Notes under the pieces: model-generated | What the model was told of the DNA's origin: nothing | The model's database searches: none | Seen by the model: the letters and a program-made list of their open reading frames with translations, nothing else | DNA from: Xestospongia muta | Lineage: Eukaryota; Porifera; Demospongiae; Haplosclerida; Petrosiidae | DNA length: 64,000 bases | Assembly (NCBI GenBank): GCA_963693285.1 | Contig: OY848917.1 | Span: 6,334,118-6,398,117 of the forward strand | Direction: 5' to 3' | In this document: positions 6,826-45,721 of the stretch, one piece after another | Numbering within the stretch: the stretch's first letter is position 1 | Layout of the letters: each line of letters starts with the position of its first letter | Translations under genes and position numbers: made by a program

Positions 6826-8417
6826 ATAAAACTAACTAATACCTTTTCAAAATAATGTCAATGTACATCAGCAATGGTGTTTATTGTTTTTTACAGAAGT
6901 GTGAAATGAAAACTGTATGATCTAATTTTTATGAAGTTACTTTCAAATCATCAGTCTGATAATACATTAGGAATGAAAACAGTATAATGTTTGTTTTCAG
7001 TTTGTATCAGTAATTTGTTACATTACCATATATAGGTTAAGTCAAACAATCAATTTTTACAGAGTACTTCTCCTATTAGCTTAAGCTTCCATATTTCATT
7101 AGATCACCATTTGAAATTAAAGTGCATCTATCAGGTATGAGGTAACGATGTCCATATGAGGGTTTTCCAGATTGTCCATTGAAATGTATTGTCATTAAAA
7201 ACACCAAATATCTCAGTCAGCTAAAACGTTTAAGAATGACATAATCACTGATACTTGGCAAGGTTTCTCCTACAATAATTCCCAAGTGATGACTGATTAC
7301 ATTAAGGAATGTTTCTAAGCATTATAGCAGAAAGTTGGTCATATTTCTGTTTCTTTGATTTTAGCCTTACCATTATTCCGATATTTGCTTGACTTGGTTA
7401 ATTAGTTTAGAGAGGAAGCTGAGAGATGCATGCTCAATGATGGGAAAACACTTCCTAGCCCTCCTAATCCATCGCTTTACTTTTTGTGATGTCTACTACC
7501 CTCTTCTCCTCCCTTAGAGGAGCATGGGTATGAGATGGTACATCAGAAGGTCTCTGCTTTGCACAGATATGCGACATGTAATGATGTCATGCTACCACAT
7601 TCTTTCTCACATTGCACAACTATAACTCTTTATCTCTACCAATTCACAGTCAGTGATTGATTATATTTGTATTAGAAAGTAAAGAATTGAATTAGTCCTA
7701 CATATCACCATCCTAACATGTGGGATGGCTGCTGTATCAGTCTTTTGTAACATGAATTGAGCTTTTCAAGGAGATTTCTAATACATATTAAATACACTTC
7801 ACTATCCTACCTATTTGATGCCTTGATAAGAGAGTCTTCTACATTGGATGTCATTTTTAATGAGGCCAGAATATTTGGCATGATCATACATACCCAAATA
7901 AGTGTCAACATTTGCTGGACTTTTCAACAGACTTTCCTTAGATATTACGGAGGGAGGGAAAAGGGATTAGCAACAGTCATTAGTCCAAATACATCCATAT
8001 TTTGCTATTTCATGTTAATACCCAAGGTGTTACTCACTGTTAAGAAAGTGCATTACTAAAGATGCTGATAATATACTTTCTCCTTCTCTTCAAGCTTCTG
8101 TGAAAGAGATCATTGATGACTTAGACTTCCAACTCAATATGGTGCAATGTACGATTGTGGGAGAAGAAGCATTGAAGATTACCTTAAAGAGATACAACAG
8201 TTTAGAGACTAAATAATGGTCAAGTTTATACCAAAGGTATGAATTTTAGCTCAGCAGTTTTTTATAAAGAAAGGCAAAAATTATAAAAGTTATTACCCAT
8301 GCTAATTAATCAAATGGTTTTACTATGTGCTCATTAATGATGGCAAGTAATATAAATTAGAGTTTAGGAATGTGCTTTAGTGTTGCTATATGGACATATA
8401 ATGTTTAATGTATAATC

Positions 8418-31393: not shown

Positions 31394-34300
31394 ATGGCAC
31401 ATCATGCATTGAGTGGTCTCACTGGTCTCGCCGGCCTCAGTCTTCTTCGTCATTTGTCACAGGAGCAACAGAACCAAAATCGCAATTACGACGAAACAAC
31501 ACTACGTCAATCTGCTATAAAAGTACTAGCAAAGGAATTAGAAGTACTCACTCACAGCCAAACACTTTTGTTGGGAGACCTACTTGGAGTACCAAGAAGT
31601 GCTTACACCTCTGACATGTTAGTAGATTACAATGGCCAACCAATGTTGAGAAGACCAGAAGTATTTCAGAAAATCATCTCACTTTGGTTGAGTCATAGAC
31701 CAGACGTTACATGGCATGAAATTGTTGTCAATCTTATCAAAACAGACCAGTTGCTATACCGTCTTGCATACTTTATATGGAAGAAATATATACATTTTAA
31801 CTCATCACACTTATGTGAAAGTAAAAGCTATATTAAAAATTAATTACAATTGTGACTTGATTTGCTATAAGGGACCACTTCTGTCAAAACATTTATGACA
31901 CGATTTATGAAAATGGACCACTGCCAAAACATCTCAAAAAGGTTTTGTATACATACAGTTACTATATATGCACAACTAGTACTATTCATAGTTACTGTAT
32001 GTAAAGAAAGGTGTTTTTTAAGTGTTTTAATAATGGTCCCATTTCACAAATCAGTCCACAAATGTTTTGATAGAAGTTGTCCTTTGTTGTGAATCAGCTC
32101 ACACTTAAAAAAGATATCAAGTATCATGTATATTGATAAGTATTATCTGTTAATTTATCATGTGTGATATCAGTCACATTTAAATTGGGTGTGGAATGAT
32201 GTGATAAAAAGTCCACTTTTTCATGTAATATTTTACTTGTTTTATATTTTTAACAGATCACATAAAGCCATTAATGATAATTGATCTTATGGATTATTTT
32301 GGGGAAGTTAAAGATATTGTAAAAACAGGAAACATCTTTAAAATCCCATCGGAAGAGTTTACTAAATTGCAGAAAAATTATCAAAGCTGTCAAAAACGAT
32401 ATGCAATTGTACTATGCAGGTTTTTAATTGAGCATAGCTATACGTGGGAAGCCATAATTGGGTGTCTTGTTGGATCTAAACTTGAGGACATAGGGAAACT
32501 CATATGGTTTGAACATATAACACCACGCATTGTTGGAGGTTTGTCAGTTAATTTATCTATTAATAGTAATGATTTTTATACAGACTATCTTCCAAAACCC
32601 ATTCCTTCCTTACCTGTTCAGTGTGAGTCTAATTTGTTGATACTACATATTACTCTAAAACAATTATATATTAATTGTCTTATTTATTACTACAGTAAAT
32701 GTACAACCCACCCTTAGTAGTTTGACCTTAAACTTTCACAATTGTGGGTTGGATTGGTTTGTCTTTGGCATATGTTTGTACTTACCTGAGGAAGAGTTAC
32801 TAGATCTTGAGAAAAGAAACTACAACAACCAGATGATATATTTAATAAAGACGTTTAGTTTGTGGCTAAGACTATATCATAATGGTCGTTGGAATGATAT
32901 ACTTGCTGCTGTTTATAATGCTGGAGAAATGGAATGTGCAGCAAGTTGTATCAGTAAGATTAAAACAGAAGAAGAACATAGTAAAGGTAATTGTTTGCTA
33001 TTGTATTTTTTGCTGGTATTTTTATTTGACAATTAAGTTAATAATTTGAATTTTTATGATAGGTCCAGTAGATCCTCTAAAACCGTTTAAAAATATCAAA
33101 AAATGTTTTCCAAACTTCAATTGGTACATTTTTGGAGCAGCACTCAATGTTCCACTGATATTTCTTGACGAAATTGGAATAACAAAGAATGGAGATCCTG
33201 AAGCATGCACTATTGAGATAGTTGACTATGTTAATAGGACTCATCTTGCACCATGGGTAATGATATGTAAAGCACTTTATAAAATGAGTGAATATGACTT
33301 GGCTATGGAAGTTGTAGCTGTTCATAAACTCCCAATACCTCATGAATGTAAGAAATTATAATAATTAAACTATTGTATTCATTATATCACTAATGACATC
33401 ATACATTTAATTGAGCCTATCCCCTTTGTATCTGTTTACAATTCTTAGTATAATTATAATGTATTTCAATATTAACATTTTAAAATTAACTACAAAACTT
33501 AATTGCTTGTATATTTCTTTAATACACATCATTAATTAATAATATATTCATTACTATAAAACATTTCCATAGTACACACTCATGTAGTACAGAAGATGCA
33601 ACAGCGAAGAGAGAGTTTTCCAGGACAGGATCATGCTACTATTGAAGGTCAGTCAGTACATAACATTTAAATTTATTTTCACATTGTTGACACTATAGGA
33701 ATAGAATTGAAAGAATTGCAGAAAATTCTGTCCCTGCAATCGCAGGAAGAGCAAGTGCTAAGAGCAAAAATACATGAACAACAGGAGCAGCAATCACAGT
33801 TTGAACTAGGTAAAAAGGTGTTATAATCTTCAGTGTTGTATTATTGTAGCAAACAGCAAACTATAGTAATTTACAGTTAAGAGTTTTTTGAAACTAAAAA
33901 GCAATATATTTATTTCAACTTTATCAAAATTTTAAGTGTGCAAACATACTAATGACACTCAGTGTACAGATGCATAAGTTAAACATCCTATTTAATTCAA
34001 TGTCTTGAAAGTTGAGTGCTAAGAGATAGTTCAATTAATTTTGTTTTGTGCAATAATTAGCCATACTCCTTAAGTATTAACAATTAAAAATCAATTTTCA
34101 GACTATATACTTTTAATTTTAAACACTTAAATTTTATTTAATTCGATGCTATCTTTTATATGAATGTCAAGATGCTAAATAAGATATTAATAATATTAGG
34201 AAATAAGATATTATTTTAACTAAACTGTTGTGCTTCTGGGGTACTTGTAGAAAAACTTCAAGAAGTAACTCAATTGAGTCATGAGTTAACTAAAAGCCGA

Positions 34301-37300
34301 GAAAGATTATTGGAAGTTGAACAAAGTATATTAATGAATATAATACATGTCACATTAGTGATTTATAATCATAGTGCTGGAGAAATGCTTAATTGAAAAG
34401 ACTTTTAATGAAGTGGCCATACAGACTGACAGTGAAGGTATAGTTTATATGCAAATAAATTTTCATTATATAACTTTTTGTATTAATTGATATAATATCA
34501 TAATGCTATCCAGATAATTAAATCTTCACTTTTCCCTTTTAGAACAATCTGAAGAATTTTTTTTACTAAGAGATGAATTAGCTAAAAGCCAGCAAAGAGT
34601 ATATGAAGTTGAACAGAGTATGTATAAATACAACTTCACATTATTAATATTATCTAGTGTTGGAGCATCAAGAAAAACTAGTTCAGGGATTAAGTATATC
34701 ACGAGTTAGTCTTGAGAGTGGTGGACTTATAAAGACACAAAGCCAAAGTGATCAAAATCTGAAACTATCTACTGATGAAAGTTAGTACATTTTCTACTTT
34801 AATAAGGTAATATTGATATTTGGATTAGAATTACAGGAAATGCAACACAGTCTTTATGTTCAAAATGAAGAAAACCAAACATTAAAGTTAAAGATAAATG
34901 AATTACAGAAACAGCTATTTTCAGCAAAACAAGGTATGACATTGATTTAAAATGAATGAAAAGTAAGCTAACACATAGTTTATAACAATTTGCAAATTGA
35001 TTACACACATTAAACACTTGAATACTCTACTTTTCTTTATATGATGTATATTGTATAATGTAGCTTTATTTAAAACATTTATGCCTTTTAGAAAATGATG
35101 AAGTTTGTCAGTTGAGAAATGAGTTAACAAAAAGCAAAGAAAAGATTTCTGAACTTGAGCAAAGTATGAAAATCCATGTTAACTTGTGTGTAGTTTAGAC
35201 ATCATTTTAATAATTAGTAGAGAAAGTTGATGTTGACAACAAAAAGGTGTTGACTGAAACTTTATACAATCAAGCAAAAGAACAGGAAACACTAAGAGAA
35301 CAACTTGAAGAATGGAGAACTAGTGCAAAAGATGGTTTGGAAATAATCAATGATTTAACTCAAACATGTGACAAACTACAATCATTTTTATTGGAAAAAG
35401 AAAGTGTTGTCACTGATACAGGAGTACAAACTGACAGTCAAGGTATGTATATGTGTTGAATATGCATAGGCGGATGAGGCACTTATATTTTGGGAGGGCT
35501 CACATCATAACTATGTGATGAATATGCAGACACAAATGTGCCCATAATGCAGAAAGTATGTTTGATATAATCACAATCAGTATTACCAACATTAATTTAA
35601 AATGTACCAAAATATTATTTCCTTCACTCATCATTTACCATAACAAATTCCTTAGCTATTTCAACAAGATCATGCTCATTAGTTGTCCATTTGTGTACAT
35701 GAAGGACCAGACAATTGTTAAGCTATTTTTCCATCATTGTGGCCTGCAAATGTCAAAACTGACAGTTTCATCAACACCAATAAGATTAACTTAGATTCTT
35801 TTTGTGGGGTAAGTAGCAAGCAATAAAAATTTGGAGGGGCTGAGCCCCCTCTTTCTAAATATTCGGGGGGTCTAGCCCCTCCAGACCCTCCCCCCCTTCA
35901 GCCTCCTATGATATGAAACTAGTCAATTATATTGCACATTCTAAAAATATGAGAAAGGTTTTTATAGTTTAATGTTGCAATATATGCATAGCAGCATAAT
36001 TTTAGTAAGTGTCACATGACTGTGTTTTTTCACTTTGAAGAACAAGCTAAAGAAATTATGCAATTGAGAACTATGTTAGCAAAAAGCCAAGAAAGAGTTT
36101 CTGAAGTTGAACAAAGTATTAAATGTATATGTGTTGTCACTTTACACAAACACAACGTTTACAGTGTTAGAGAAACCTAAAGAACAACTAGAAACTGAAT
36201 TGAAACTCAACGTAACTGATATGGCTATACAAACTGATAATAAAGGTACAATATTTCTACACTTTGTAGATTTCAATAACACACTTAATTTTATTTTAGA
36301 ATGCGCTGTAAAGTTTACACAAACTGATCAAATTATAACATCTGATGAAGGATCATCACTTGTTATTCTCTTTATTCATACATTATTTACATTAATGCTG
36401 TGTCTTCCATTTCTTGGACAAGACATTGCTAGCATTCGTGAGTATACACTTTACCACATGCATGCATTAACTTTATAATTAATTGTTATTATTAGCTCCA
36501 TTACCTGGTGTGGATGTCCTTGCATCTAAAAAACTATTAGTAGTTGGTGGTCAAATGACTCAATTACATTGGGATGAGTTTGGATTGAGGATAGACATAC
36601 CAGACAATGCACTTCCTCCAAGAATGTTGGCTCAGATAGTAATTCGTGTTAGCAGTTCTGGACCATATGTATATCCTAGTCCTGATTATTGGAAACTAGC
36701 CAGTTCAATCTACTGGATATCCAGTACTAAAGACTTTGTTAATCCTATTAAACTAGGAATATGGCATAACATCAGGATGTTCAAAAATTCATCCCAGCTT
36801 CGTTTTGTCACAGCATCAGACGAACCTCAAAATGGAAAATACACTTTTTTGGGAACATCTAGTGACAGCTATTTCGATCCTAAAGATTCATATGGATATA
36901 CATTTTTAAAGCATTTTTCAGCCATGGCTGTAGAATCAACTGAAGAACAATTTAGTGGTTGTCTTTATCACCGATTATCAAAACCTGACAAAATGTGGGA
37001 GTATAGCTTTTTAATATATAAAGAATCAAGTGAAGCTGTTCATGAAATGGTAAATATGAATTGTTTTTAAAGCACACAAATGTACACTTGTATTGCATAG
37101 CTCCTGTTAAGAAATGGATACAGCAGTTGGGCAAGAGATTCTCTACCCATATCAGTAGAATTTGACAAGGAAGAAATTACAATGGATATAGGAATACCTC
37201 AACTTGATAAATGGAAAATTATTGCTCGTTATCCACCTCCTAAAGTTAGTAAATAAATTCATTTAGTAATATACGACAAACACGAATATTATCTATTGTT

Positions 37301-38178
37301 TGTAGTACAATAGAAATCGCCTACAAAGTGGTGAAATTAAGAGCAATATGCAATTATTTGTTATATGGGAAGGAGAGTCATCACCAAAATCATCATTAAT
37401 ACAGTTACCATTACAAGGAGCAAAACAACCCACTAGTATTACATTTCAAACATGTCCAGGTATGTGAGTATTTTAAAAAAAATATTATATATGTTAAGGT
37501 AATTTAAATTTAATCCTGTTAAAAATGAGATGAGGATTTTACAATAATAGGTCTGCTATAAAACAGGTCAGAAATAGTCAAGTAATGCTTTATTTAAATT
37601 ATATATACTTAAGGGTATGCATTGGAATACACTATAACTTTGAAATGATCATTTGGGTCTCAACTTACATAATTGTAAATTTGTTATAATATATTTCATC
37701 AATTACAATGAATTAATGAATATTACTGTTAGTGAGGTTTTTATCTTTATTGTGTATATGTAGATAATGATGTTCAAGTAAGTAACTTGGCAAAAGTTGG
37801 TGATGGAGGTATGTTATAAATAATACAGTGTCATAGGGCAATCTTGATACTTTAGGTTCTATTTCATCTAATGTTAACAGTTTAGTTGTTGAGTTACAAA
37901 GTGTTACTGAGTTTTTACCATTCTGTATATATCTTGGAATGGAGTTCTCTGATTGTCGTAAAGTTGAGACTGAAAGACAAGGAGAAGTTGAAGAACAGAA
38001 AATTGTTATGTTACAGAAATGGCTTGAAGGAGGAGATCGTACATGGAGAGATTTTATGCGACCTTTTGCACTTTTAGGAAAATGTACTAAAGCAAAAGAA
38101 TTATCAAATGATCATTCTGTTTATTTTTTTGAACATGAAGTACTCAATGCTTGTCCTAACATAAATGATATGAATTAA
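31394..38178 (+). CDS. Paralogue A: multi-death-fold, coiled-coil, ZU5-UPA-like, death-domain scaffold protein (22 exons)
   Basis: Exons: 31394-31820, 32257-32538, 32584-32622, 32696-32986, 33063-33347, 33573-33647, 33699-33809, 34251-34325, 34375-34437, 34543-34617, 34658-34780, 34829-34933, 35092-35163, 35221-35442, 36041-36115, 36165-36245, 36300-36437, 36496-37049, 37101-37244, 37306-37459, 37764-37808, 37856-38178. All phases agree, giving 1252 aa. Exons 1, 2, 4 and 5 each encode one six-helix death-fold-like module (for example NWYIFGAALNVPLIFLDEIG). Exons 6-17 are coiled coil built from similar small exons ending EVEQ or ELEQ. Four QTD motifs occur (VAIQTDSE, GVQTDSQ, MAIQTDNK, KFTQTDQI). 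Exon 17 adds a hydrophobic stretch (LVILFIHTLFTLMLCLPFL). Exon 18 is ZU5 (GGQMTQLHWDEFGLRIDIPD), exons 19-20 are UPA-like, and exon 22 is a terminal death domain (FCIYLGMEFSDCRK). The ZU5-UPA-DD order recalls UNC5, ankyrin and PIDD. The function is inferred to be a signalling scaffold. Confidence 0.8.
35465..35910. mobile_element. 446-bp inserted element in intron 14 of paralogue A
   Basis: The ends are inverted copies (CATAGGCGGATGAGG at the left, CAGCCTCCTATG at the right), flanked by the direct repeat ATATG (35460-35464 and 35911-35915). The interior has an unusual G/C-rich foot (GGAGGGGCTGAGCCCCCTC, CTCCAGACCCTCCCCCCC). The homologous intron of paralogue B (about 43380) reads GAATATG followed by TGACTAGTC with no insert, so it is an empty site. 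There is no coding capacity. It is a nonautonomous DNA element or a SINE-like unit. Confidence 0.78.
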
Positions 38179-39920: not shown

Positions 39921-42900
39921 ATGGCACATCAGGCTCTTGGTGGTCTTGGTCTTCTTGGTCTTGGCTTAGGTCGTATGGCTGGTCGTCAGGGTGGTCATCA
40001 GGGTGGCTATGCAGCACATCCCCAGGCAAGAACATCACCTTTACAAGATGCCACCTCATTACTGATGAAAGCTTTAGGGACTCTTACTTTCAATGAATTG
40101 TACTATTTAGGGGGTCTACTCGGAGTCCCAGAGGGTGTTTACACTCCTGAGATGTTAACACCTAACCAAGGAACAATGGCAAGTAGGCCAGTGATATTCC
40201 AGCAAGTTATATACATTTGGTTGCAATATTTGCAAACCTTACATGGGAAGATTTAGTCAGAGCACTGCACAGAATGGGCAAAATCAATCTTGCCTTTCAT
40301 ATATGGATTGAATATATGACATCATCACAGACAAACCAAGGTAGGATTTTGTATTGACTTATTAAGCCATCTTTTTAATATGTACTTTTTCTTGCTATAG
40401 TTATAAGTAGTAACATGTAGAAATTAAAGCCAAAATTATATTGCTTAATTTATGAGCCATGGGTAAAACTTTTGTTATAACTAGTAGGTATGTATTTAGA
40501 TAAATAGTTTCAATTTATATTTGTAGATTCAACAAAGCCATCAATGTTAATTGAGTTGATAGACGTTTTGAAAGAAATTCCAGATAAAACAAAAGTTGGT
40601 AGTATCCTGAAAATTCCATCAAGCGACTTTAAAAGAATTCACAAAACCTATCAAGGATCTGTAATACGATACAGAGCAATGTTGAGCAAGTACTTGCTAG
40701 AACATGACTTTACTTGGGAGGGTATGGTCAGATCCCTTGTTGATACCAAACAGGAGAAATTAGCAAAGGACATATGGATCAAATATATTACACCATGTTA
40801 TTATGGAGGTTTGTTCCTTAATTAATGTCACATTTTAAGTTATAATATAATTTACATACAGGTGTTCCTCCTCCTTTTATCCCTTTCCTCCTTTCAGAAT
40901 GTAAGTCAAACCGAGCAGTTAAAATATACCACTGTTTAAAATAATTAGATTGTTTAGCCAATTCATGGTCATTTAAGTTGTATAATATGTCTACAATAAA
41001 TACTGAATGTATAAAAGAGATATGTCTAGTGTAGAGGGTGTCCAATTATAAATTCCATAGTGACAAACACTCTCAGCATCCATGAAAGTTCTTTTGTCTA
41101 ACTAATAATGGGGAATTAAACAAAACCTTTAAAGCATTAATAATTACACAATTAAGTACATGTCAGTGTCAATCAACACATCATTTAAGGAAACAATATG
41201 ATGTTTACTACTTCTTAGTGTTTCATTCATGCAACATAAATGAACATGGATTAGTTAAATTAACCAACTTATTTTCAGTGTATGATGAAAATTTCGTTCT
41301 CCATTTGATTAAATCTTTATAGTTAATCAACAGCCTACTCTCTCTGATTTGACATTAAAGTTTTATAACATTGACCTGGATTGGTTTGTTCTTGGTGTAT
41401 GTCTCTATATATCAGAAGAAGAGTTACTAAGGATTGATAAAGAGAACAACAACAAACCAAGGAAATGTATCATCAAATTGTTTAGCTACTGGCTAAAGCT
41501 ACGTCGCAGAGGTAATTGGAATGATATACTGGCTGCTTTGACTCATGCTGGTGACAGAGAATATGCTATAAGTATTATGAGTGGGCTTAAAACTGAAGAC
41601 ATGAACAGGAAAGGTATTATAGTAATTGATACAAAGTGTGCAATTATAATAGCTTTATACAATAGGTCCTTTGAATCCTTTCAACCTATTCCAGAACAAC
41701 CTTCTGAAATACCTACCAACTTTAGATTGGTACATCCTTGGAGTAGTACTTGATATTCCACTATTGTTTCTAGATGAAATTGAGATTGCTCAACATGGAC
41801 AAACTGAATTATGCACACTAGAAATAGTGGACTATGTACATAGGACCAATTCTGAGACAACATGGAGTACGATTAGTGATGCACTTTGTAGAATGAGGGA
41901 ATATGGCTTAGCTATGGATATTATAACAGATCATAAACTACCAGTACCCTACAAATGTGAGTTTTAATTATAAGGACATTGTAGTTGCTACATTTGTAAT
42001 CATTTGTAATTCTGTCTATTTTTCATTGGACGTGCGTATACTATATCTGCATGAATTTTTTTACTAATAGACTTTATGGGCACTTTTGCTTTAAAACAAA
42101 GTAATAATAAAAAATAAAAATAAAAACAACAACAAAAAAATAAAAACATAACATAAACATGAATTATTAGTATTATCTAAAAATCTGTGTTATTTTATAT
42201 ATAGTGCATACACATGTAGTACAGACAGCATTAGAGCAAAGACGAAGTGGTCATGATCTGGAGCTATCTACTGATGAAAGTCAGTATATCTTCTACCTTT
42301 TATTAAAATATCATATATATTGGTACTATAGGAATAGAAATACAGGAAATACGTGAAAACCTTCATATTCAATATGAAGTAGAACAGACTTTAAAAGCAA
42401 AGATAAATGAATTGCAGAAACAAGTAGAGTCAACTAAACAAGGTAGATGTGTATATTGCATTAGTTAAAAATAAAGTCTGGCACACAAGTAAATATTTTG
42501 TAGAATTAATTGAATGAATGTGTTAAATAAAATAAACTTGTAAGATATTTTTTATCATGTTTGTTGCTATATGAGATATTAATTGTTAAAATAACAACTT
42601 TACAAATTCAATTAAAATTTAAGATTATTGTGCCTTACAGAAGAATCCGAAGAAGTTTTCAAATTGAAAAATGAGTTAGCTCAAAGTCTAATAAGAATAT
42701 CTGAAGTTGAACAAAGTATGAAATAAATACATTATAATGCTATATGTTTGTTATATTGGTAGTATTAGAGCAAACAGTAATACTTAATAAAGAAAGCAGA
42801 TTAAATGAAGTAGCAATACAGACAGACAATGAAGGTAAGTTCACTCACATTGAATATGTTAATGAATTGGAATGATATAATAAGAGAATCCTAAAACACA

Positions 42901-45721
42901 TGCAAACAGTGTAATAGCAGCCATTTTTTAGTTGTAGCATCATCAGCATATTTTCTGTTAATAGAATGGGCAGAAGAAATTGTCTATTTAAGAAATGAGT
43001 TAACTAAAAGCAAAGAAAAAGTATCTGAGCTTGAACAAAGTATGAAAAATGTATGCATGTGTGTATTTTATAGCAACATTGTTTTAATAATCAGTGTTGA
43101 AGCAGAGTCAAGAACATCTAGAGAAAGCAGAGAAAGTCAATGTTGAGAGTCATCATAATGAAAGTGTGTTCACTGAAACTTTATACAATCAAGCAAAAGA
43201 ACAGGAAACATTAAGAGAACAACTTGAAGAATGGAGAACTAGTGCAAAAGATGGTTTAGAAATAATCAATGATTTAACTCAAACATGTGACAAACTACAA
43301 TCATTTTTATTGGAAAAAGAAAGTGTTGTCACTGAAGCAGGAGTACAAACTGACAGTCAAGGTATGTATATGTGTTGAATATGTGACTAGTCAATTATAT
43401 TGCACAATATAAAATAGATTTATAATAATTTATATTCTAATATTGGAGGAAATGTGTAAATTATATGATTAATTGTGTCATATAACAATTATTATGACTG
43501 TACTTTTTACTTTTAAGAAAAATCTGAAGAAGTTATACAATTAAGAAATATGTTATCAAAAAGCCAAGAACGGGTATCTGAAGTTGAACAAAGTACATCA
43601 ATGTAAATGAATTATCAATTACACAACATTAACACTCACAGTGCTAGAGCAAACTCAAGAACAACTTGAAAATGATTTGAAAATCAACCTATCAGATATG
43701 GCTATACAAGGTGACATTAAAGGTACAGTAATGTCTCTATAATGTTGGGCAAATTTTGAAATTTGTAGATTTCACTTGACGTACACTATTACTTAATTAA
43801 GGTCTAAATATATTTAAATTTATAAACCATTTCCATTTAATTTATTTTGAGAAATATTTATATGTATACAACTAGGGCAAGTAAACCATTATAATATTAA
43901 TTTATAGGTTGATTTGAGTATTCATTAACACGCTTCTTTTTACCTTTTAAAACTCAATTGAAAGTTGATGTAACTTATATGGCTATACAAACTGATAATA
44001 AAGGTACAATATTTCTACACTTTTTAGATTTCTATAACACACTTAATTTTATTTTAGAATGTGCTGTAAAGTTTACACAAACTGATCAAATTATAACATC
44101 TGATGAAGGATCAGCACTTGTTATTATCTTCATTTACACATTATTTACATTAATATTGTGTCTTCCATTTCTTGGAGAAGACAATACTATCATTTGTGAG
44201 TATACACTTTAGCACAAGCATACATTGAGTTTATAATTAATTGTTATTATTAGCTCCATTACCTGGTGTGGATGTTCTTGCATCTAAAAAACTATTAGTA
44301 GTTGGTGGTCAAATGACTCAATTACATTGGGATGAGTTTGGATTGAGGATAGACATACCAGACAATGCACTTCCTCCAAGAATGTTGGCTCAGATAGTAA
44401 TTCGTGTTAGCAGTTCTGGACCATATGTATATCCTAGTCCTGATTATTGGAAACTAGCCAGTTCAATCTACTGGATATCCAGTACAAAAGACTTTGTTAA
44501 TCCTATTAAACTAGGAATATGGCATAACATCAGAAAGTTCAAGAATTCATCCCAGCTACGTTTTGTCACAGCATCAGATGAACCTCAAAATGGAAAATAC
44601 AATTTTTTGGGAACTTCTAGTGACAGCTATTTTGATCCTAAAGATTCATATGGATATACATTTTTAAAGCATTTTTCAGCCATGGCTGTAGAATCAACTG
44701 AAGAACAATTTAGTGGTTGTCTTTATCACCGATTATCAAAAGCTGATAAAGTGTGGGAGTATAGCTTTTTAATATATAAAGAATCAAGTGAAGCTGTTCA
44801 TGAAATGGTAAGAGAGCAATAACTATTTCTGATGCACAAACAAGTACTTTATGATCTTAAAAATGTATTTGTACATGTATAGTTACTGTTAAGAAATGGA
44901 TACAATAGTTGGACAAGAGATTCGTTACCAATCACTGTGGAATTCAATCACAATGACATTGCTATGGACTTAACAACACCCCAGTTTGAAAAATGGAAAA
45001 TTATTGCTCGTTATCCACCTCCTAAAGTTAGTTACTCAGTTATTGGTGCATAATATTATCTATTATTTGTAGTACAATAGAAATCGCCTACAAAGTGGTG
45101 AAATTAAGAGCAATATGCAATTATTTGTTATATGGGAAGGAGAGTCATCACCAAAATCATCATTAATACAGTTACCATTACAAGGAGCAAAACAACCCAC
45201 TAGTATTACATTTCAAACTTGTCCAGGTATGTGAGTATTTAAAGGTATCAAACTTGCTAATAAATATTTTCATGTGTATTGTTGTCATTTTTGATTTTAT
45301 AGATGATGATGTACAAATGAGTAAACTGACAGCAGTTGGTAATGGAGGTGTGTTACTACTACATAACTTGTATAATGCATAAGCTTTGGACTCTTTAGGT
45401 TCTATTACAGCTAATGTTAACAGTATGGTCTTTCATTTACAAAGTATTACTGAGTTTTTACCTTTTTGTGTATATCTTGGAATGGAGTTCTCTGATTGTC
45501 GTAAAATTGAAACTGAAAGACAAGGAGAAGTTGAAGAACAGAAAATTGTTATGTTACAGAAATGGCTTGATGGAGGAGATCGTACATGGAGAGATTTTAT
45601 ACGACCTTTTACACTTTTAGGAAAATGTACTAAAGCAAAAGAATTATCAAATGATCATTCTGTGTATCATTTTGACCCAGAGATTCTTAAAATTTGTTCT
45701 GACATTAATAATGAAAATTAA
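39921..45721 (+). CDS. Paralogue B: multi-death-fold, coiled-coil, ZU5-UPA-like, death-domain scaffold; frameshift in exon 1
   Basis: Exons: 39921-40340, 40527-40808, 40862-40900, 41323-41613, 41666-41956, 42205-42279, 42332-42442, 42641-42715, 42763-42834, 42965-43039, 43095-43361, 43518-43592, 43642-43722, 43965-44003, 44058-44195, 44254-44807, 44883-45026, 45073-45226, 45303-45347, 45399-45721. This is the same architecture as A, with about 1183 aa if exon 1 is read through. Exon 1 starts MAHQALGGLGLLGLGLG and is 1 nt short: the frame breaks after IYIWLQY near 40223. The next frame continues the homologous FANLTWEDLVRALHRMG, pointing to a lost T in a T run. Exon phases elsewhere are intact. 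The QTD motifs are VAIQTDNE, GVQTDSQ, a decayed MAIQGDIK, MAIQTDNK and KFTQTDQI. ZU5 and one UPA-like exon are almost identical to A, whereas the death folds are diverged. Confidence 0.75.

Follow-up and report, generated by a model that had tools for sequence, protein, structure and literature searches.

A plausible noncanonical LC8 client in a sponge: one convincing-looking QTD motif and three borderline ones in a coiled-coil protein with a divergent, ZU5-like domain

The window, the whole stretch of sponge DNA analysed here, is 64,000 nucleotides long (C1:6334118-6398117), and the genome that we searched comprised 158 Mb in 28 contigs. Two related genes on the plus strand, gene A and its tandem paralogue B, are the subject of this report. 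The exon model of gene A was built by hand and by eye, and its splice sites and phases were then checked. In this hand-built model, gene A has 18 exons from 31394 to 37049, encoding 1,030 residues up to the end of exon 18, and all 17 introns are GT-AG introns in phase 1. Further exons toward the C-terminal domain are visible in three frames, and that domain (37855-38175 by its match) lies outside the joined model. Coiled-coil exon 8 (34251-34325, plus strand) has phase-1 introns on both sides, and exons 10 (34543-34617), 13 (35092-35163), and 15 (36041-36115), on the same strand, are related to it. In blastn pieces, these four coil exons were 76 to 84% alike to several coil exons of B. The first exon of B (39922-40340) is out of frame by one base relative to that of A in this assembly. 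Therefore, B may be decaying, or the assembly may be in error at this place.

Exon 18 (36496-37049, plus strand) encodes the ZU5-like part of the protein. Pfam PF00791 (ZU5) gave no direct match in gene A. Relatives of exon 18 at C7:6981113 and C1:3945220 overlapped PF00791 matches above the cut-off (31.4 and 27.2 bits), and it is through such relatives that exon 18 is supported as a divergent ZU5 domain. Pfam PF00531 (Death) did not directly match any of the five exons searched, four N-terminal and one C-terminal. The C-terminal domain matched C2:10841126-10841335 (E = 0.002), which overlaps a Death match of 36.5 bits. The first-pass annotation had described a scaffold of ZU5 and death domains. 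Its ZU5 domain holds up through relatives and its C-terminal death domain through one weak link, whereas its N-terminal death domains found no support. Exon 18 had at least 150 matches in the genome (150 scored of 304 candidates), many of them in tandem clusters on C1, C3, C6, C7, and C9, and these numbers point to a large expansion of the ZU5 family. Pfam also gave a match with a tail protein of crAss-like phages, which at 20.9 bits fell short of the cut-off of 27 and was taken as a coiled-coil artefact. A structure model of exon 5 was unusable for domain identity (pLDDT of 52.5), and in a PDB sequence search this exon matched designed proteins, TPR designs among them, over short lengths only. 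Relatives of the exon 5 domain (33063-33347) occur at eight tandem places in C4:9620142-9644561, with long open frames of 660 to 797 residues.

Exon 17 encodes a hydrophobic membrane-type segment, LVILFIHTLFTLMLCLPFLG, which ends LCLPFLG (36359-36418, plus strand) and lies between the last QTD motif, described below, and ZU5. Its mean hydropathy of 2.44 over 19 residues is the highest in the 1,030 joined residues. Similar segments precede ZU5 in four stretches on C2 (L050, L051, L056, and L057), for example IVIIISILFSFLLCLPYMG. A relative on C13 (L067) has a hydrophobic segment between a Pfam Death domain (49.1 bits) and a domain like the C-terminal one of A, and we infer that all three belong to one gene. 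Death-like domains on both sides of the segment in this relative pose a topology puzzle. The N-terminus of the gene A protein, HALSGLTGLAGLSLL, is mildly hydrophobic (mean of 1.31 over 15 residues).

Four QTD motifs are encoded on the plus strand of gene A. Motif 1, NEVAIQTD (34407-34430), is at the 3′ end of exon 9 (34375-34437), with its glutamine at residue 543. Motif 2, TDTGVQTD (35412-35435), is at the 3′ end of exon 14 (35218-35442; glutamine at residue 743), and motif 3, TDMAIQTD (36215-36238), is at the 3′ end of exon 16 (36165-36245; residue 795). Motif 4, AVKFTQTD (36305-36328), is in the 5′ part of exon 17 (36300-36437; residue 807). The motifs had been placed at the ends of separate small exons. 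All four are real and lie in GT-AG exons (34375-36437), with three at the 3′ end of their exon as proposed, but motif 4 sits close to the start of exon 17. They had also been likened to ligands of the dynein light chain LC8, and all four do fit the natural LC8 core [TVI]Q[TV][DE], as given in the available part of PMC3078936.

This core occurs four times in the 405-residue coil region of gene A. When the composition of that region was shuffled 20,000 times, 16,018 shuffles had no core, 3,572 had one, 377 had two, 33 had three, and none had four. However, exon 16 and exon 9 seem to have been copied from a single exon, and the four motifs are therefore not independent. Three origins is the fairer count, a number reached in those 33 shuffles. 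Across the whole window, the core occurs eight times in the three plus-strand frames, each time within A or B, and four times in the minus-strand frames. The distances from glutamine to glutamine in gene A are 200, 52, and 12 residues. With spacing this uneven, a short cluster ahead of the membrane-type segment fits better than the ladder that had been envisaged.

LC8-likeness was scored with a purpose-built matrix, not with LC8Pred, from 35 binders and 28 non-binders among published peptides. The binders were 11 from table 1 and 7 from table 2 of PMC6607443, 6 of the 9 rows of PMC5746249, 6 of the 7 peptides of PMC5963919, and one phage-selected consensus from PMC3078936, to which a second version of the matrix added nNOS, two GKAP sites, and one gephyrin site. 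Four "weak" rows, one table 1 duplicate, three N-anchored rows, and one TMT peptide were left out of the binders. The non-binders were 28 of 43 "N" rows; the other 15 were without a Q[TV] anchor, duplicates, or shifted peptides. The matrix separated binders from non-binders moderately (leave-one-out AUC of 0.82).

Motif 2 scored 15.8, above 20 of the 35 binders (leave-one-out) and 26 of the 28 non-binders, and it was the single best of 72,361 octamers in six frames of the whole window. Motif 3 scored 10.9 (above 7 binders and 18 non-binders), motif 4 scored 8.8 (above 2 and 14), and motif 1 scored 7.9 (above 2 and 11), all in the range where binders and non-binders overlap. Scoring of the kind that the first-pass annotation proposed, here with our own matrix, thus gives motif 2 a score like those of known binders and leaves the other three borderline. 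At the score of motif 1, four sites were seen versus 0.46 expected from the shuffled region. Seven known I/V-anchored binders scored 8.8 to 17.3 (leave-one-out); motif 3 is inside that class and motif 1 just below it. Motif 4 equals the lowest of these binders in score, but its anchor is T. The second matrix was made after the first had been seen, and it raises motifs 1, 2, and 3 and slightly lowers motif 4. With the first version (31 binders, without the IQV class), motifs 2, 4, 3, and 1 were above 14, 2, 1, and 0 binders and above 27, 16, 13, and 4 non-binders. The exon 11 octamer GLIKTQSQ, tried as a decayed motif, scored -2.6 and was rejected.

According to PMC6607443, an LC8 site should have a large side chain at -3 and P, D, or E at +2, and neither a large hydrophobic residue at -4 nor a bulky aromatic one at -2. 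Judged by eye, motifs 1 and 3 satisfy these flank rules, and so does motif 2 except for T at -3, as in nNOS. Motif 4 fails at -4 (V) and at -2 (F) despite its canonical TQT. Its KFTQTD had been presented as an exact fit to the LC8 pattern, but given these two unfavourable residues and its low score we rejected it as the leading site. The F at -2 counts less firmly against motif 4, given that in Drosophila ASCIZ, a site whose -2 residue is Y binds LC8 at 15 µM (PMC5963919). In the tables of PMC6607443, all three IQT peptides were non-binding, which is evidence against motifs 1 and 3. The nNOS peptide DTGIQVD binds LC8 at 5.4 µM, and GKAP LSIGIQVD and QSVGVQVE bind as well (all in excerpts from PMC12797016). 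Motif 2, as DTGVQTD, is close to the nNOS site described there.

The exon 14 peptide, folded alone, gave one helix over residues 2-68 (mean pLDDT of 90.8). Block means of pLDDT were 76 for residues 61-70 and 53 for residues 71-74, and the last six residues, VQTDSQ, were non-helical at low confidence. Therefore, the first residues of the motif 2 octamer would be in the frayed end of the helix. A crude heptad score was 0.24 to 0.35 at the four motifs versus mostly 0.36 or more in the coil exons between them, but it does not discriminate, because it was equally low (0.30) at a fifth TQT within a confident helix. The claim that the motifs break the coiled coil is thus retained for motif 2 only. 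The fifth TQT, DLTQTCDKL (35358, exon 14), which the first-pass annotation did not list, was rejected as a site: it is inside the confident helix and scored above none of the 35 binders.

A highly conserved LC8 is predicted from the genome sequence. It is encoded at C5:8534010-8534312 (128.7 bits), and 59 of the 62 residues of its second exon, counted from the alignment, are identical to a solved dynein light chain 2. There is a second Dynein_light match on C10 (66.7 bits).

No homologue was found at an E value of 0.001 among 7,992 candidates scored in the protein collection. The coil region had 16 matches in the genome at E values up to 1, and all 16 were in A or B. We examined ten stretches at ZU5 relatives (L049-L058), including one with a relic (L054) and one with a distant relative (L058). 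When the sense strands were scanned for exact cores, no motif ladder was found, and none of the ten had two cores. A single core occurred in two of them, as QVE 7 kb before ZU5 (L049) and as QVE after ZU5 (L056), neither at the coil position. By a matrix scan of nine stretches (L049-L053, L055-L057, and L067, with L054 and L058 left out), 1 of 42,016 octamers reached the score of motif 3, and it had F at -1. Therefore, within this genome, the array is a novelty of A and B. Conservation of the motifs, which the first-pass annotation proposed to check in sponge orthologues, finds no support in these ten stretches at relatives, and B lost one motif.

In B, all on the plus strand, the counterparts of motifs 1 to 4 are NEVAIQTD (42804-42827), TEAGVQTD (43331-43354), SDMAIQGD (43692-43715), which lost T at +1, and AVKFTQTD (44063-44086). 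B also has a partial second copy of exon 16 (43952-44002, with MAIQTDNK at 43988) without an acceptor in the right phase. Two tracts of A and B are highly identical (35243-35464 versus 43161-43383, 97.3%; 36192-37477 versus 43950-45243, 90.3%), with surrounding pieces at 72 to 89%, and by their sequence they are products of recent gene conversion or local duplication. The counterpart of motif 2 is in the first tract and that of motif 4 in the second. These two counterparts and the second MAIQTDNK copy are uninformative about selection, because of the shared tracts and the lack of a right-phase acceptor. Among the informative motifs, B keeps one (motif 1) and lost another (the motif 3 counterpart). 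We compared codon changes in tests that were post hoc, with the motif chosen first, and that involve a handful of codons and a gapped alignment: between A and B, the NEVAIQTD codons of exon 9 had three synonymous and no amino-acid changes, whereas the other 12 aligned codons had two and seven (one-sided P = 0.045), and between exons 9 and 16, the AIQTD codons had three and none, whereas the rest had one and 12 (P = 0.007). Exons 9 and 16 look like derivatives of one duplicated exon in which AIQTD was kept through synonymous changes only.

The array might be a by-product of exon duplication in a coil rich in Q, T, and E, in which one AIQTD exon end was copied, the other motifs arose by chance, and none binds LC8. 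We take this to be a serious contender, although short of an even chance. The likeness of exons 9 and 16 is what it predicts, but it does not readily account for an AIQTD that was kept by synonymous changes while the rest of the exon changed. It agrees with the overlap-range scores of motifs 1, 3, and 4, with the absence of the array from relatives, and with the motif lost from B. Even so, a copied exon does not explain motif 2, which is yet the best octamer in the window, and three cores were rare in the shuffles. Alternatively, the QTD ends could bind a partner other than LC8, such as a TRAF MATH domain, or serve as hinges, short non-helical joints between coil segments. Motif 2 does end a helix, and TRAF-binding peptides occur in death-receptor settings. 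However, the TRAF2 major consensus, [PSAT]x[QE]E, does not match at the glutamine of any of the four motifs, and so specific a core as [TVI]QTD exceeds the needs of a hinge, so we consider this explanation unlikely.

Whether LC8 has access to the motifs depends on how the hydrophobic segment, which lies between them and ZU5, is oriented. The motifs could be LC8-like and still never meet LC8, if the N-terminal part of the protein is outside the cytosol as in UNC5-type receptors. In those receptors, the ZU5 and death domains are intracellular and come after the membrane segment. The gene A protein resembles them in having a membrane-type segment, then ZU5, then a death-like domain. It differs in having a coiled coil after exons without a proven fold, instead of immunoglobulin and thrombospondin domains, and in a ZU5 too divergent for Pfam. 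This domain order, the hydropathy of the segment, the similar segments in relatives, and the mildly hydrophobic N-terminus all speak for such a topology, whereas the C13 relative, with its Death domain and a basic stretch N-terminal to the segment, argues for a cytosolic N-terminal side there. That argument is not directly transferable to A, because the corresponding flank of A is acidic. On balance, a non-cytosolic position of the motifs seems doubtful.

Compared with characterized LC8 clients, the gene A motifs are most like the nNOS and GKAP class, so far as the available text of PMC12797016 describes it, in that the anchoring Q is preceded by I or V, with G (or A, in gene A) at -2, and is followed by V or T at +1 and D or E at +2. 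GKAP likewise has two nearby sites in one scaffold, but its sites are in a disordered segment and have measured binding, whereas those of gene A are predicted from sequence (PMC12797016). Nup159, ASCIZ, and Chica also have several Q-anchored motifs per chain, and the octamers of motifs 3 and 4 are 4 residues apart, within the 3- to 9-residue linkers of multivalent LC8 clients (PMC5963919, PMC10046861, and PMC12797016, in the parts available). Unlike these three, gene A has gaps of 200 and 52 residues with much predicted coil, mostly weak motifs, and a ZU5 domain with a membrane-type segment. WWC/KIBRA and AMOT share with it a [ST]QT[DE]-type motif in a signalling scaffold with coiled coils, but as excerpted from PMC5746249 they have one or two sites with measured Kd values and WW, C2, or angiomotin domains instead of ZU5.

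We propose that the gene A protein is a plausible noncanonical LC8 client, with one convincing-looking motif and others that are borderline. The best explanation as a whole, with a probability of about 0.48, is a membrane-type adaptor dimer that would be clamped by LC8 at motif 2, with the weaker motifs filling by avidity. The product would begin with the part encoded by four N-terminal exons of unproven fold and continue with a coil of duplicated phase-1 exons and the hydrophobic segment. A divergent ZU5 and, at the C-terminus, a death-like domain would complete it, and its chains would dimerise through the coiled coil. Motif 2, where the exon 14 helix gives way to non-helical residues, would be a noncanonical site like those of nNOS and GKAP, and an LC8 dimer could bind two parallel chains there. 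Motifs 3 and 4 (52 and 64 residues past motif 2 and 12 apart) would be weaker sites, filled by avidity once motif 2 or the coil pairs the chains. Motif 1, 200 residues upstream of motif 2, is the most doubtful site. The outcome would be a clamped parallel dimer near the membrane, with the ZU5/death part held dimeric, and duplicable exons might add or remove LC8 sites. In our estimate, the odds that one or more of the motifs bind LC8 are about even, and the probability of a functioning multi-site clamp is near one in four.

An extension of this proposal, which we regard as improbable, is that the ZU5/death adaptor is specific to sponges and anchored in the membrane, and that phase-1 cassette exons, which can be duplicated, determine its LC8 valency, with each QTD-ended exon adding one clamp. 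Gain, loss, or skipping of exons, or their exchange between neighbouring copies (exchange is seen in B), would then tune how tightly the dimer is zipped, and with it the threshold at which death or immune signalling sets in. Should motif 2 and its neighbours prove to bind LC8, an early-branching animal would have a lineage-specific death/ZU5 adaptor tied to a universal dimerising hub, its valency set through exon duplication. In the open-licence literature covered, no paper combined LC8 and DYNLL1 with a death domain and a coiled coil, and none from a looser search was, by its title, on an LC8-bound death-domain scaffold.

Elsewhere in the window, at about 1384-1430 and 6958-7004 on the minus strand, the identical peptides FLMYYQTDDLKVTS and LLIQTENKHYTV are found at both places. 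This repetition suggests that the window holds another tandem duplication.
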